A stretch of DNA of 29,851 nt from a virus. The notes beneath the pieces were generated by a model. It saw nothing but the letters and a program-made list of their open reading frames with translations, was not told where the DNA came from and searched no databases. Where the stretch lies: positions 1 to 29,851 of the IMG/VR virus record IMGVR_UViG_3300046656_000170. One strand, written 5' to 3'. This document shows, one piece after another, positions 2,882 to 10,963 of this stretch (positions are counted from its first letter, which is position 1; each line of letters opens with the position of its first letter). Both the position numbers and the translations under genes were made by a program.

Positions 2882-3877
2882 ATGGGATTAATTACAAAAT
2901 ATGGATCATTCTGGGGTCTCGTGCCGCAAACGACAGGAAGAACCTTTTGGGTCGCGCCGTCCGCGTCCTATGTCGTAGAAGGTAACACTTATCCGGCTAG
3001 TGACAATAACGATGGCCTGTCTCCCGAGCGGGCGCTGCTGACAGCCAATCAGGCTATCACCAATGCGACAGCGAACGTGGGGGATGTTATTGTGCTGCTG
3101 CCTGGAGCGCATTCCGTATCCTCGACAATTGCCGTCACCAAGGCTGGTCTTACGATCGTCGGGATTCCTGGCGGCATGATGCGCACCACCACCCTCCGTC
3201 ACAATTCAGGCGGTCGGCGCACGCGCACCACGCTCACCTGTACGGCGACAGCCGGTATCTGCATCACAGTGAGTGCCGTCGATACTGAGATCGCCTACAT
3301 CACGTTCCTGCCTGCAGCGGCGGGTGGGCGTGGCATCAGCTTGGCCCCACTATCTGGGGCCGCGAATCGGACTTATATCCATGATTGCGCCTTCGCCATG
3401 GTCGCAACAGCCTCGGTCACGACCTATGGCGTGACGGTCCCTGCTGGTGTCACGGCAGACTTGCTGGAAGATACATTGGTCTCTCACTGTTATTTCGTGT
3501 CTGGGCTGGACACCTCGACTGGGGCCAACGGGTCTGCCGTGAATACCTTGGGGACGACCAGTAGCTTCACCATCGAGCAGTGTACCTTTGAGCTCAAGGG
3601 AACTGCGGCCTGGGCGAATGCGATCCTGGCCTCGAATGCTGGCGGGAAGGGCCTCGTCATCCGCGATTGCGATTTCATCAATCCGACCTCGGCCACAACC
3701 GTAATCACTACAGCCATCAACACGACGGGACAAACCATCGATGGCTCGACACAGGTACATCGATGCTACATCCCGACCGGCACCGATGGCGTCACCGCCT
3801 CGGCTATGGTCGATATCGTCTTGACGGAAACCTATCTCGCCAATTCAAGCGGCGGGGCACTCGTGACGAACGCATAG
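2882..3877 (+). CDS. Right-handed parallel beta-helix surface protein
   Basis: A 331-residue protein. Residues 25-60 resemble the opening of pectate-lyase-like phage and bacterial proteins (FWVAPSAS, SDNNDGLSPERALLTANQAI). Repeating short coils follow, such as GLTIVGI, DTEIAYITF, RTYIHDCAF, SFTIEQCTF, GLVIRDCDF and STQVHRCYI. These 'xxIxxCxF' rungs at roughly 20-30 residue spacing are the signature of a parallel beta-helix with stacked Cys/Phe. There is no signal peptide, as expected for a virion component. It starts at an ATG behind AAAGGAG. Position right after the capsid genes suggests a head fibre or decoration; a tailspike with depolymerase activity is possible but no catalytic cluster can be identified. 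Confidence 0.7.
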   Translation: MGLITKYGSFWGLVPQTTGRTFWVAPSASYVVEGNTYPASDNNDGLSPERALLTANQAITNATANVGDVIVLLPGAHSVSSTIAVTKAGLTIVGIPGGMMRTTTLRHNSGGRRTRTTLTCTATAGICITVSAVDTEIAYITFLPAAAGGRGISLAPLSGAANRTYIHDCAFAMVATASVTTYGVTVPAGVTADLLEDTLVSHCYFVSGLDTSTGANGSAVNTLGTTSSFTIEQCTFELKGTAAWANAILASNAGGKGLVIRDCDFINPTSATTVITTAINTTGQTIDGSTQVHRCYIPTGTDGVTASAMVDIVLTETYLANSSGGALVTNA

Positions 3878-3890
3878 TAAGGGAGCGGGC

Positions 3891-4697
3891 ATGATCCATT
3901 TGAGCGAATCGGGGCATGGGCCAGGCACGATCATTGTGGCTGCGAATATCCAGCCGCGCTATTACGAGTTCCATCTCTCGCTTGACGCGCTGGGTGCTCC
4001 AGCCGGGACCAAGCTCCACATTGAACGAAGCTGCGATATCACGCAGAACTTCAACAATGGCGTCAAGGCCATGATCGGGGAGTGGGCCTGGTTTCTAGGG
4101 GACGACCATTCGTTCTCTCCGACCGTCCTCATGCGTCTCTTGAGCCATCAGGTGGATGTGGTGGTGCCGATCACCCCCACGAAGACGCCGCCGTGGGGGC
4201 CGTGCGTGTTGCACGGTCCTACGGACGGGCGGATTTGGCATACGGAAATGCCGCTCTATCGCTGGTCTGAGTTATCAGGGCCAGGACTCTTGGCCTTGCC
4301 ACAGGGGGACTTTATTGGACAGGCGGGCATGTTGGTGCGTCGATCGGTGCTGGAGAAAATCGGCTACCCCACCTTTAAGGCGGGGCGACTCGATCCTGGG
4401 CGACTCCAAGAAGACCTCTCGTTTTGTCGTGAACTGCAGCAGATGGGCGTGACGATCTACATCGATCAAGAAATCATCTTTGACCATCATGCTCCGGTGT
4501 GCGTGACGGCCAGAAAGCATGAAGGCGTCTGGGTGCCATCACTGAAAGCCGGGACGGGCAGCGTGATGGTGATGGCTGGTGGGGTGCGGGTCATGGACGA
4601 TTGCAATAGCCAGGTTCCTAGAACCTCGAATGTGAAATGGGCGTTGGTGGATGAGACGCTAGCGAGAGAGGCGGCGGAAGAGGAAGCACCGGCATGA
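3891..4697 (+). CDS. GT-A fold glycosyltransferase (copy 1)
   Basis: A 268-residue enzyme of the family 2-like GT-A type, expected to transfer a nucleotide-activated sugar. The pattern is a first beta strand (TIIVAANI, 13-20), N-F-N-N-G near 53-57, the metal-binding GDDH at 70-73 after an aromatic strand (WAWFL), GQAGMLVRR around 143-151, an acidic QED at 173-175 in the usual catalytic-base position, and a DHH at 198-200 as a third metal ligand. It is a clear paralogue of the protein at 10199-10963, with all three motifs at the same residue numbers. It overlaps the acyltransferase gene downstream (ATGA), suggesting they act together. There is no transmembrane segment, so it should be cytosolic. 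Sugar donor and acceptor are unknown: virion protein, host O-antigen or DNA. Confidence 0.8.
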
Positions 4698-5161
4698 CCG
4701 CCTTTACGAACCCCATTATTCATGAGCCTTCGACCGTGCATCCCTCGGTCATCGTCGGGGAGAACTGTACGATTTGGCAGTATGCGACCTTGTGCGAAGA
4801 GGTTGAATTGGGGCAAGGAGTCGTGGTCGGGAGTCATGCCTGGATTGGACGGGGCGCCCAGATTGGGAATTATACCCGTATCCAGCATGGCGCGTTCATC
4901 CCGAACCATACGCAGATTGGGCGGGGCGTGTTTGTGGGGCCGAATGTGACCCTCACCGATGACAAGCATCCGAGGGCCGGGGCCTTCTATCGCCCGCTGC
5001 CGCCGATTCTGGAAGACGATTGTTCGATCGGAGCGGGTGCGGTGATTTTGCCAGGAGTACACATTGGCCAAGGGGCGATGGTAGGTGCCGGGGCCGTTGT
5101 CACTCAGGACGTGGCAGCGTTCTCAACAGTCACGGGCTGTCCTGCGCGTGCTAGCGCATAA
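4694..5161 (+). CDS. Left-handed beta-helix acyltransferase (WbpD/WlbB-like sugar N-acetyltransferase)
   Basis: A 155-residue hexapeptide-repeat protein. Successive [IVL]-G-x-x-x-x units run from about residue 13 to 135 ([54 protein letters not shown]) and the protein ends with VTGCPAR, close to the V-x-G-x-P-A tail of this superfamily. The [11 protein letters not shown] segment (86-95) breaks the coil as the 'FTN-x-x-x-PR' loop does in WbpD/WlbB-type UDP-sugar N-acetyltransferases. The enzyme would trimerise and use an acyl-CoA, acting on an amino-sugar nucleotide. It overlaps the upstream glycosyltransferase by 4 bases, so sugar acylation and transfer appear coupled. Exact substrate is inferred. 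Confidence 0.8.
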
Positions 5162-6989: not shown

Positions 6990-7001
6990 TGTTGACGCAC
7001 G

Positions 7002-7430
7002 ATGCAAGTCACACTGGTATGGGACGCGAACACCGAACCGGACCTCGCCGGCTATCTCGTCTATCACGGCATCTCCACAGGCGTCTACGACCCTGGGATC
7101 ACCGTACTCGCGCCGACTACGACCTATACGTTTACGAATCTGCCGTTTCAGGTCACGAATTATTTTGCGGTCAAATCGTTCGATACGTCCGGCAACGTCA
7201 GTGCCAGCTATAGCAACGAGGTCTCGCACAAGGAAGAGTTCCCGATCTTCATCTATGGCACGCTGACGAATCGACCGATGGATCTCATGCGGTTGCGTTG
7301 GGATACGGATGCGAGCAATCAGGAGGCCGGGTTTATCGCGGAGGCGCTGGGGCTCAATATCATTATTGGCCCTCCACCTCCTCCCAGCTTTCCACTCGAT
7401 GTCGTCATCGGTGGATTTCAAATGATCTAA
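7002..7430 (+). CDS. Single fibronectin type III domain protein lacking strand A
   Basis: A 142-residue protein. Residues 1-75 are a bacterial-type FN3 domain: VTLVWDANTEPDLAGYLVY at the start (strands B-C with the core Trp and Tyr), TTYTFTNLPFQVTNYFAV in the middle and SFDTSGNVSASYSNEV at the end. The protein starts directly at strand B; the usual 'PP-x-AP-x-x-L' strand A is absent. Residues 80-142 form a different tail ending in a Pro run and a hydrophobic strand (FPLDVVIGGFQMI). The start ATG at 7002 is 12 bases after the previous stop and has only a weak ribosome site. FN3 domains in phages usually decorate heads or tails and may bind host surface sugars. Confidence 0.75.
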   Translation: MQVTLVWDANTEPDLAGYLVYHGISTGVYDPGITVLAPTTTYTFTNLPFQVTNYFAVKSFDTSGNVSASYSNEVSHKEEFPIFIYGTLTNRPMDLMRLRWDTDASNQEAGFIAEALGLNIIIGPPPPPSFPLDVVIGGFQMI

Positions 7431-7443
7431 GAGAGGAGTCATT

Positions 7444-7731
7444 ATGCCCACTGTCAATTTGACCTGGACCGCCAATACCGAAACTGATCTCGCGGGGTAT
7501 AAACTCTACCGAGGATTGGGTGCGTCGGCGCCGACCTTCCTCGCCGCCTTCCCGAAGACGGCGACCAGCGGGAGCGATGCGACCGTCCCGAATACCTCGC
7601 AGACCGTGACCTACAATCTGACGGCAGTAGACAATGCGGGGAACGAGAGCGCCCACAGCGCCGTGGCGACGGTGACGGTTGACGCAACCCCTCCCCAAGC
7701 CCCGACTGGCCTGACTGCTGTGTTGGCCTAA
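7444..7731 (+). CDS. Single fibronectin type III domain protein, strand A at C-terminus
   Basis: A 95-residue protein with AGAGGAG before its ATG. Residues 2-80 are one FN3 domain starting at strand B (VNLTWTANTETDLAGYKLY) and finishing with YNLTAVDNAGNESA and VATVTVD. The last 15 residues (ATPPQAPTGLTAVLA) match the linker plus strand A that normally opens the next FN3 domain, after which the protein stops. The chain therefore looks circularly permuted relative to a canonical FN3. It is paralogous to the protein at 7002-7430. Virion decoration is the likely role; polymerisation by strand donation is considered in the findings. Confidence 0.75.
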   Translation: MPTVNLTWTANTETDLAGYKLYRGLGASAPTFLAAFPKTATSGSDATVPNTSQTVTYNLTAVDNAGNESAHSAVATVTVDATPPQAPTGLTAVLA

Positions 7732-7786
7732 CCGGGGCACGCAAGAAGTTGTGTCGATGGTTTCACTGGTGCCCGTAAGGGGATAG

Positions 7787-9034
7787 ATGTCGATTTATTA
7801 TGTGCGGACAGATGGGAACAATGGCAACACGGGGCTGGTGAACTCGGCTGCCAGTCCAAATGGCGCATTTCGTTCGGTTCAAAAAGGCATTGATGTGATG
7901 GTGGCAGGGGATACCTGCAATGTGGTATCCGGCACCTATCTAGCGAGCGACGTCTCTGGCGGCACCCAACTCACGAACGTCGTCGGCAATGTTAGCAGTG
8001 CGAAGGCGAGCGGCACGGCACTGGCCCCAATCACGCTCAAGAGTCTGGTCACTGGTGCGGTACGCCTGACGGTGCCAAGCATCGCGGGCGTCCAAAATAG
8101 CGGGATTGTCATTTCGCGTCCCTATTGGATCATTGACGGATTTGAAATTTCAGGGGGCGCCAGCACCGATATAGGAGCCGCGCATCATGGCGTCGATGTC
8201 ACCACCGGGTCTGACAATTCCATCATTCGCCACAACCTCCTCCATCATATCGGGAACGTCTGCACGGATACCATCTTTGGCGAGGAAGGCATCTACGCGA
8301 ACGGCGGCAGTAATGTGACCATCGATGGGAACACCTTCCATGACATCGGCAGAAACTTCTCCCATACCTTCGATCCGACGAGTTTTTGCAACACGACCGT
8401 CGAAGCGGCCACGCATAATCACGATCACGGCATCTATACGGACGTAAGTGCCACGAACGTCCTCATTATCAATAACCTTTTCTACAATACCCTGCACGGC
8501 TGGGGGGTGCAGATCAAAGGCAATAGTTCGGCGAAGGTCTATAACAACACGTTCTATGGGGCGAATCCCAACAACACCTATCCGGGACAACTTGTGTTCG
8601 ACAATGGCACGCATAGCAATACTGATATTGCCAACAACATTGCCTATCAGCCAGGCGGGTACACGCCTGGATTCATCTTCTATTTCGACACTGCCGGGCC
8701 GTATAGCAACGTCACGGTGCGCAACAATCTCGTCTATCAGGGCGTACTGACGGCGTTGAACCTCACGGGCAATGCGCAACCAGCGGGAGTCACGGCCTCC
8801 GGGAACATCGTGAACGCGACGAATCCGAATCTCGTCGATCCGGTGAATCATGATTTCAGACTCCAGGCAAGCAGCGCAAGTGCCCTCAACGCGGGACTGA
8901 CGTTGGTGCAGGTGACGGCGGATTTCTTGGGCGTGGCACGCCCGCAGGGGGCGGGGTACGATATTGGGGCCTACGAATTTTCGAGTACGGATACCACGCC
9001 GCCAGCGGCTCCCATCAATCTGAGGATTGTCTGA
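7787..9034 (+). CDS. Right-handed beta-helix protein with C-terminal FN3 strand-A tail
   Basis: A 415-residue protein preceded by TAAGGGGAT. The N-terminus (YYVRTDGNNGNTG, FRSVQKGIDVMVAGDTCNV, SGTY) matches the start of secreted parallel beta-helix proteins related to pectate and alginate lyases. Rungs follow, such as YWIIDGFEISG, NSIIRHNLLHHI, NVTIDGNTFHDI, NVLIINNLFYNT, SAKVYNNTFYG and NVTVRNNLVYQ, with strong Asn stacking. The end, DFRLQASSASALNAG then GAGYDIGAYEF, is the common closing motif of 'choice-of-anchor' beta-helix proteins. The last 13 residues (TTPPAAPINLRIV) are an FN3 strand-A start, then a stop. No signal peptide. It could be a tailspike/depolymerase or glycan-binding fibre. 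The stop overlaps the next ATG (TGATG). Confidence 0.75.
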   Translation: MSIYYVRTDGNNGNTGLVNSAASPNGAFRSVQKGIDVMVAGDTCNVVSGTYLASDVSGGTQLTNVVGNVSSAKASGTALAPITLKSLVTGAVRLTVPSIAGVQNSGIVISRPYWIIDGFEISGGASTDIGAAHHGVDVTTGSDNSIIRHNLLHHIGNVCTDTIFGEEGIYANGGSNVTIDGNTFHDIGRNFSHTFDPTSFCNTTVEAATHNHDHGIYTDVSATNVLIINNLFYNTLHGWGVQIKGNSSAKVYNNTFYGANPNNTYPGQLVFDNGTHSNTDIANNIAYQPGGYTPGFIFYFDTAGPYSNVTVRNNLVYQGVLTALNLTGNAQPAGVTASGNIVNATNPNLVDPVNHDFRLQASSASALNAGLTLVQVTADFLGVARPQGAGYDIGAYEFSSTDTTPPAAPINLRIV

Positions 9035-9895: not shown

Positions 9896-10202
9896 CGGCT
9901 ATCGCTTTCGGCGCGGCACGGGCTCACCGTTTGATTCGCTCGTGAAGCCGGAGCATGACATGAGTGTGGCGCGGAATGGGGTGCCGTGTAAATGGTGCCC
10001 CACCTGCAAGCAGGGCGTCGATACGAAGATTGAACAGCCGAATCAGGCGCAGGTCTTTGGGTTTAAGGAAACCTGTAAACGCTGCGGGGCCGTGCTCATG
10101 AGCGCCGTCTACTATCACGTCGAATCGCTTGTAGAGAAGCCGACTGAATTGGTCAAGAAAGCGTTGCTCTGGACCAGCGAGAAGGAGTGTCTGACGAAAT
10201 GA
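9879..10202 (+). CDS. Zinc-ribbon protein (107 aa)
   Basis: A 107-residue protein with cysteines at 37, 40, 43 (CKWCPTC) and 66, 69 (CKRC), enough for one zinc ribbon plus one extra cysteine. The N-terminus is basic (SNGYRFRRGTG) and the C-terminus is a helix (ESLVEKPTELVKKALLW). The gene is preceded by GGAG and overlaps the downstream glycosyltransferase by ATGA, so it is coupled to it. The metal-binding knuckle may mediate nucleic-acid or protein contact. I do not recognise a named family. Confidence 0.7.
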   Translation: MNLISNGYRFRRGTGSPFDSLVKPEHDMSVARNGVPCKWCPTCKQGVDTKIEQPNQAQVFGFKETCKRCGAVLMSAVYYHVESLVEKPTELVKKALLWTSEKECLTK

Positions 10203-10963
10203 GACTCGATCATCCGCCTGGTGTCATTTGTGTGGCAAGCGGCGAATTGTCCCGCTATCCGCATTTCACCGATAGCATGCTGAACGTCTTGCGCCCCAAG
10301 GGCAGCCGCGTGCATATGGGCATCGGCCTCAATGTGGCCGCGAATTTCAATGCGGGCATTCGCCAAATGATGGCGGTCCCCAGCTTTGAATGGGTCTGGA
10401 TTATGGGCGACGATCATGAGTTCGATCCCACAACTCTCTTACGGTTATTGGATCATGAACTCGATATCGTCGTCCCCCTTGTGGTCCGCAGACAACCGCC
10501 GTTTATCCCGGTGCTGTTTAAGCGGCCAACAGACGAGACGCCGCTCGGGCAGTTCCCGCCGTTCTTCTGGCACGACCTGCCGGCAGGCGGCCTACTCGGG
10601 CCTGACGACGGGCTCTATACCTGCGGGAGTGCCGGGATGTTGATTCGTCGCGAAGTCCTAGAGACGCTGACGGACCCCTGGTTTGAAATGGGGAAGATGG
10701 GAAAGGATCTCACGAATGAAGACACGCATTTCTGCCTGAAGGCGCAAGAGGCGGGGTTCTCGATTCATGCCGATTTAGAGACGCCGATGGATCATTGGAC
10801 GCCGATTAGCTTGCGTCCGGTTAAAACAGATTCGGGGGTGTGGACGGTGGCCCTCAATCTCGGTGGCAATATCACAGTCTCCCTGCCGCCGTCGTTGCTC
10901 ACCGAATTACTCACGACCGTCACAGAGGGCACGAAAGAGAACTTCGCGCCCCCAACATTATAG
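10199..10963 (+). CDS. GT-A fold glycosyltransferase (copy 2)
   Basis: A 254-residue enzyme read from the ATG at 10199, which overlaps the previous stop (ATGA). With this start, GDDH falls at 70-73, NED at 173-175 and DHW at 198-200, exactly the residue numbers of the same motifs in the protein at 3891-4697, which supports both the start and common descent. Strand VICVASG (9-15), N-F-N-A-G (49-53), WVWIMGDDHEFDP and GSAGMLIRREVLE are also aligned. A GTG at 10187 overlaps the ribosome site and is less likely. It should transfer a sugar from a nucleotide donor in the cytosol. Sequence differences in the acceptor region (100-140) suggest a different acceptor from copy 1. Confidence 0.8.
   Translation: MRLDHPPGVICVASGELSRYPHFTDSMLNVLRPKGSRVHMGIGLNVAANFNAGIRQMMAVPSFEWVWIMGDDHEFDPTTLLRLLDHELDIVVPLVVRRQPPFIPVLFKRPTDETPLGQFPPFFWHDLPAGGLLGPDDGLYTCGSAGMLIRREVLETLTDPWFEMGKMGKDLTNEDTHFCLKAQEAGFSIHADLETPMDHWTPISLRPVKTDSGVWTVALNLGGNITVSLPPSLLTELLTTVTEGTKENFAPPTL

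Follow-up and report, generated by a model that had tools for sequence, protein, structure and literature searches.

The viral record IMGVR_UViG_3300046656_000170 raises the question of why two of three consecutive genes encode FN3 proteins that lack the first strand of the fold, and why two of the three encode proteins that end in a strand of just that kind. We refer to the whole 29,851-base stretch of this record as the window, and to the three genes by their start positions, 7002, 7444 and 7787 (Table 1). We consider it moderately probable that they encode a split-FN3 socket-and-plug system, which would work by donor-strand complementation between proteins.

Table 1. Features of the 7002, 7444 and 7787 genes, in window coordinates
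Coordinates	Strand	Feature	Basis
7002..7430	+	FN3 protein from strand B, body about 7002-7226, without strand A and without plug tail; putative "socket only"	
7431..7443	+	Intergenic; AGAGGAG ribosome-binding-like site ahead of 7444	Sequence
7444..7731	+	FN3 strands B to G (7444-7680), then plug tail; putative "socket plus plug"	
7681..7728	+	Orphan FN3 linker and strand A, DATPPQAPTGLTAVLA	29.6 bits, internal-A profile; coil in monomer model
7787..9034	+	Right-handed beta-helix protein, 415 aa, without signal peptide	Pfam Beta_helix
8852..8980	+	Choice-of-anchor Q domain, residues 356-398 of 7787	NF041518, 40.0 bits vs cut-off 25
8981..9031	+	Orphan FN3 linker and strand A at anchor position, SSTDTTPPAAPINLRIV; putative "plug only"	23.4 bits

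The 7002 protein (142 aa) begins with MQVTLVWDAN and the 7444 protein (95 aa) with MPTVNLTWTAN, both of which correspond to FN3 strand B. Strand A is not recoverable for the 7002 protein, because an in-frame TGA lies at 6993, three codons 5' of its start; the 7444 start follows the preceding in-frame stop by only six codons. The two proteins are 38% identical. The Pfam fn3 profile (PF00041) aligns to the 7002 protein from profile position 16 of 84 with 12.7 bits, under the curated cut-off of 25, and a search of the 7444 protein with the same profile gave no match. At the other end, the 7444 protein closes with DATPPQAPTGLTAVLA, including VTVDATPPQAPTGLTAVLA, i.e. the usual FN3 linker and strand A followed directly by the stop codon; the 7787 protein, recognized by Beta_helix (PF13229) with 34.9 bits against a cut-off of 25.9, closes with DTTPPAAPINLRIV, so that only SSTDTTPPAAPINLRIV remains between its anchor Q domain and the stop. 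The first-pass annotation had described these missing first strands and these orphan ends; the sequence ends, the upstream stops and the structural alignment given below agree on the former, and the profile scores of the two tails bear out the latter.

Beyond its FN3 body, the 7002 protein carries a C-terminal extension of 67 residues (7227-7427), proline-rich near its end (IIIGPPPPPSFPLDVVIGGFQMI), for which no match was found and which may attach the socket to something. The stretch between 7444 and 7787 (RGTQEVVSMVSLVPVRG) bears a faint resemblance to a strand B, for which we found no support. Close to these structural-type genes, at window 3891-5161 and 10187-10963, are glycosyltransferase-like genes and one with hexapeptide repeats.

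Structure prediction for the 7444 protein is consistent with an open fold. The AlphaFold2 model (34 aligned rows; pLDDT 95) forms strands B, C, C', E, F and G; strand A is missing, so the domain is not seven-stranded, and residues 80-95 form coil that belongs to no strand. A complete FN3 within the monomer, with the tail packed elsewhere, had been named as the outcome that would speak against strand donation; the prediction gives an incomplete FN3 and an unpaired tail. The top matches in a structural search with this model are FN3 structures or FN3-containing proteins (Z about 10-11 over 75-80 residues). Single FN3 structures align with it from about residue 15-19 onward, and strand A is therefore absent from the 7444 body; the tandem FN3 chains 5n47 and 3t1w align over model residues 1-95, and the 7444 tail therefore runs like the linker into a next domain.

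The likeness of the tails to strand A was quantified with a profile of 14 columns, built from 159 linker-plus-A segments that are internal to tandem FN3 arrays of related loci and are not protein ends. On this profile the 7444 tail scores 29.6 bits and the 7787 tail 23.4 bits; among the C-termini of other open frames of the same loci, 9 of 3,233 reach at least 6 bits, and the top two of these nine belong to beta-helix proteins, namely 7787 itself (the highest) and that of contig L015. At the strict threshold the tail is present in 13 of 39 distinct A-less single FN3 proteins versus 9 of 3,233 controls (p about 5e-24). Of these proteins 35 are viral, at least 12 of them with the tail. Further tails are recognizable by eye, though the strict profile detects none in many A-less FN3 proteins. 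Most viral relatives were fetched with strand B-C peptide patterns (WDANTEPD and similar), none of them derived from the tail. The reverse search, a DNA pattern for the tail and stop codon alone, returned two genuine proteins (L199 and L210), both of them FN3 proteins that terminate in it. An anticorrelation between N-terminal and C-terminal strand A was not significant (p 0.47 with a crude motif, p 0.22 with the profile) in a set where few proteins with an N-terminal strand A end near the domain.

The same two parts occur on separate proteins in Nitrospirota. A Nitrospira genome (L161) encodes an FN3 lipoprotein (lipobox LASC) that spans strands B to G only; the next gene downstream encodes a secreted beta-helix protein with an anchor Q domain and the end TTSPIAPRRFRLLRIQ, and the next gene upstream (L161:1461-3860) an unrelated secreted NHL-repeat protein with the end RTAPAKPSRFRLLRLQPQ. 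The tails of these two proteins, two genes apart, are nearly identical (RFRLLRLQPQ in the NHL-repeat protein vs RFRLLRIQ in the beta-helix protein); they score low with the array-trained profile, though their layout matches. Two related genomes (L278 and L279, the beta-helix frame of the latter being broken) have retained the pairing of lipoprotein and beta-helix genes, and a survey of anchor Q proteins in 246 Nitrospirota genomes yielded two further independent pairs (L324 and L333), in which an FN3 lipoprotein adjoins a secreted, tailed beta-helix protein. Thus four genomes (L161, L278, L324 and L333) have a gene for an A-less FN3 lipoprotein followed immediately by the gene of a secreted, plug-bearing protein with beta-helix and choice-of-anchor Q domains. 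A further locus (L352:3859-5394) is a natural socket-plug fusion, its one protein having a lipobox, an A-less FN3, a beta-helix, a choice-of-anchor Q domain and a plug. The Pfam fn3 profile matches L278, L324, L333 and L352 with scores above its cut-off, beginning at position 11-15 of its 84 positions and at 12-15 for the lipoproteins of the Nitrospirota pairs; this is independent confirmation that strand A is missing. Among the C-terminal anchor Q proteins read in two phyla, an A-less FN3 was found within 5 kb or on the same chain for 6 of 14 with a plug versus 0 of 29 without (Fisher p 0.0005), an approximate figure, as the plug was scored by regular expression and the loci were chosen by frame length.

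Two further groups of Nitrospirota proteins were seen. The secreted proteins L240:1453-2445 and L196:1112-2008 have an N-terminal A-less FN3, a further domain and a C-terminal plug, and many frames of 320-340 aa may belong with them. The anchor Q proteins L334, L337, L338, L340 and L341 have a shorter related end motif without the double proline (TAPTSLRVVN, IAPTSATAF), possibly a second plug type.

These observations are best accounted for by donor-strand complementation between neighbouring proteins; other readings compete with it. The A-less FN3 could be stable by itself; the tail would then be a separate motif at the C-terminus with some other target, for example a different virion protein or a factor for secretion or anchoring. 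Folding of FN3 begins with strands B, C, E and F, and strands A and G pack last (PMC4330816), which makes a split at strand A plausible and equally means that an A-less FN3 might be stable alone. The high AlphaFold2 confidence for the A-less body of 7444 fits a stable domain with a separate tail motif, as do the several plug-bearing proteins with no FN3 gene nearby and the sockets without a plug, such as that of a Nitrospira genome (L280) with none beside it. The L196 protein, a natural socket-linker-plug in which a long proline-threonine linker and another domain separate the A-less FN3 from the plug, was predicted by AlphaFold2 with its tail undocked and in coil (pLDDT below 50; pTM 0.43); this is a weak negative, because there was no alignment depth outside the FN3. 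A motif of independent function would, however, hardly be expected to match the strand A of tandem arrays as the 7444 and 7787 tails do, or to co-occur with A-less FN3 domains, and we regard this explanation as unlikely.

The viral relatives speak for complementation and also bear on a second explanation, that the ends are relics of domain shuffling. Related phages carry the same breakpoints: the cut between A and B and the tail recur in unrelated contigs, and the C-termini of homologues are related, contrary to the second outcome that the first-pass annotation had named as speaking against strand donation. In contig L062 a short FN3 protein without signal peptide that starts at strand B (3481-3756) is followed by an FN3 protein at 3747 with signal peptide and the tail NPPQAPTGLSVVSQ, and then by a beta-helix-like gene at 4129 that is cut off by the contig end; in L015 an A-less FN3 gene (2964-3254) is followed by a gene for a divergent secreted protein at 3279 and by a beta-helix gene at 3894, whose product has anchor Q and the tail TPPSIPTGVRVD. 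The first genes of these two series, L062:3481-3756 and L015:2964-3254, are the positional counterparts of 7002; L062 repeats the gene order of the window, and L015 does so with a divergent middle gene. An FN3-with-tail gene also precedes a beta-helix-like gene in L005, L041 and L051, and a protein of L039 has the order body, A, body, A, with as many A strands as bodies. Several tails run on into helices (L029, L032); in the phage FN3 proteins L029, L032, L034, L035 and L042 the segment after strand G leads into an aromatic and basic-rich C-terminal stretch that resembles an amphipathic helix. Isolated phages gave only weak FN3 matches, in tail proteins of Streptomyces and Marinitoga phages, and none for the beta-helix.

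In the shuffling explanation, recombination in the tandem FN3 genes of phages and bacteria tends to cut at the A/B boundary and leaves functionless A-less starts and A-only ends. Tandem FN3 arrays do consist of such parts, and every cut falls at that one point. Pairwise codon comparison gave tail pN/pS values of 0.23 for the Nitrospira beta-helix tails, 0.28 for a phage and bacterial FN3 family and 0.32 for L004/L005, all similar to the adjoining sequence; judged by these ratios, the tails are under purifying selection and are no decaying leftovers. Such selection, the presence of tails on unrelated proteins that adjoin A-less FN3 genes, and the clean ends after strand A in many divergent contigs all argue against functionless relics. 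The first-pass annotation had offered shuffling as the alternative to strand donation: we find its neutral version unlikely, because the tails are under selection and tend to occur with A-less FN3 genes, but shuffling may be the origin of the parts.

In 7444 and most tailed phage relatives, body and strand A are on one chain, an arrangement that would also suit a circular permutation in which the C-terminal strand folds back into its own strand-A position. In the FN3 topology, the end of strand G and the start of strand A lie at opposite poles, and the linker has only about 6-8 residues, three of them prolines; self-completion is unlikely for these reasons. AlphaFold2, moreover, leaves the 7444 tail unpaired, and a permutation leaves 7787 and the lipoprotein sockets unexplained, since body and strand A are carried there by separate chains; we therefore hold it to be very improbable. 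That sequencing errors or recoding broke one multi-FN3 protein is scarcely credible: the genes are adjacent and occupy three reading frames, but three different frames together with relatives that are also separate genes do not fit one gene split by error, a ribosome-binding-like site stands ahead of 7444, the tail of the second gene is followed by a beta-helix instead of an FN3, and the same ends occur in many independent relatives.

Donor-strand complementation would assign a role to each of the three proteins. An FN3 reduced to strands B to G would be an open socket; the missing strand would be carried by another protein as a C-terminal plug (PPxxPxxLxV) and would pair antiparallel with strand B to complete the socket in trans, as in tandem FN3 chains, where the following domain's strand A plays this part. 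The 7002 protein would be a terminal socket that only receives a strand; 7444 would be a link that both receives and gives one, so that head-to-tail chains would be possible; and 7787 would only give one, its plug serving as the anchor of the beta-helix. Together they could form a chain with the order 7787-(7444)n-7002. The Nitrospirota socket would be anchored in the membrane, and the plug would replace other anchors after the choice-of-anchor Q domain.

The place of use probably differs between these settings. The window proteins have no signal peptides, as would be the case for virion proteins, but most phage relatives have them; the phage system may serve in a virion appendage here, and the versions with signal peptides or lipoproteins elsewhere would serve at the cell surface. 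Some phage relatives lie away from structural genes, and in L031 the next frame downstream, of 861 codons, may encode a DNA polymerase. Of the original proposal of a self-assembling virion fibre made by donor-strand complementation, the complementation is supported by the incomplete monomer, the unpaired tail and the recurrence of the arrangement with its tail kept; a virion fibre is one possible form of the phage version. Because many phage relatives have signal peptides and the Nitrospirota partner is a lipoprotein, a more general socket-and-plug anchor is indicated. It is plausible, and we suggest it tentatively, that A-less FN3 domains and C-terminal strand-A plugs constitute a general split system for anchoring and fibre linking that needs no chaperone, protease or sortase, holding beta-helix and other secreted proteins on lipoproteins in Nitrospirota and linking appendage proteins in phages, with the plug as one of the anchors that follow anchor Q.

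These observations suggest a simple way to snap surface or virion proteins together. If the plug docks, one of the commonest domains in biology would provide a small, portable two-part joint; the many phage FN3 genes that start at strand B and end in strand A would be explained; and a class of beta-helix surface proteins would have its anchor.

The principle of donor-strand complementation is known, and an FN3 split across genes would, provided that docking occurs, be a new form of it; we found no paper in the open-access literature that links donor strands to phage FN3 proteins. In chaperone-usher pili and TasA fibres, a beta-sandwich without one strand is completed by the strand of a neighbour, which yields head-to-tail chains, and in TasA fibres the minor component TapA gives the first donor strand (PMC10903470). 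These systems and ours have in common a subunit fold without one strand and a matching strand as an extension of a partner, the docking being putative in our case; they differ in that the donor strand is N-terminal there, whereas here an FN3 fold lacks its first strand and the donor is C-terminal. A scan of a subset of the window proteins showed neither a chaperone nor an usher. In type V (Bacteroidetes FimA/Mfa1) fimbriae, a protease removes the first strand, so that the mature shaft subunit lacks it; a C-terminal donor has been proposed, and a lipoprotein that keeps its first strand is the membrane anchor (PMC5789003). The absent first strand, the C-terminal candidate donor and the lipoprotein anchor are shared with our loci; here, however, the gene itself does not encode a first strand that a protease could remove, the lipoprotein is A-less, and the fold is FN3, the 7444 protein being a single FN3-like domain of 95 residues that, among the structural matches listed, resembles FN3, in comparison with the two-domain fold of the FimA/Mfa1 type. 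Tandem FN3 arrays (PF00041; PHROG 11445 and 31), known from phage tail proteins and from secreted proteins of bacteria, are alike in the sequence of linker and strand A, but here the chain is cut between A and B and the halves are on different genes. Other choice-of-anchor Q proteins (NF041518) have, going by the family name, varied C-terminal anchors; in 7787 and its Nitrospirota counterparts this domain stands just ahead of the C-terminus, and an orphan FN3 strand A takes that place. A strand-A-swapped FN3 scaffold (PDB 4m6a) also exchanges strand A between molecules; that exchange is engineered, whereas the arrangement described here is genetic and recurrent and, if the plug docks, would be a natural peptide-socket pair like the engineered tag-catcher systems.
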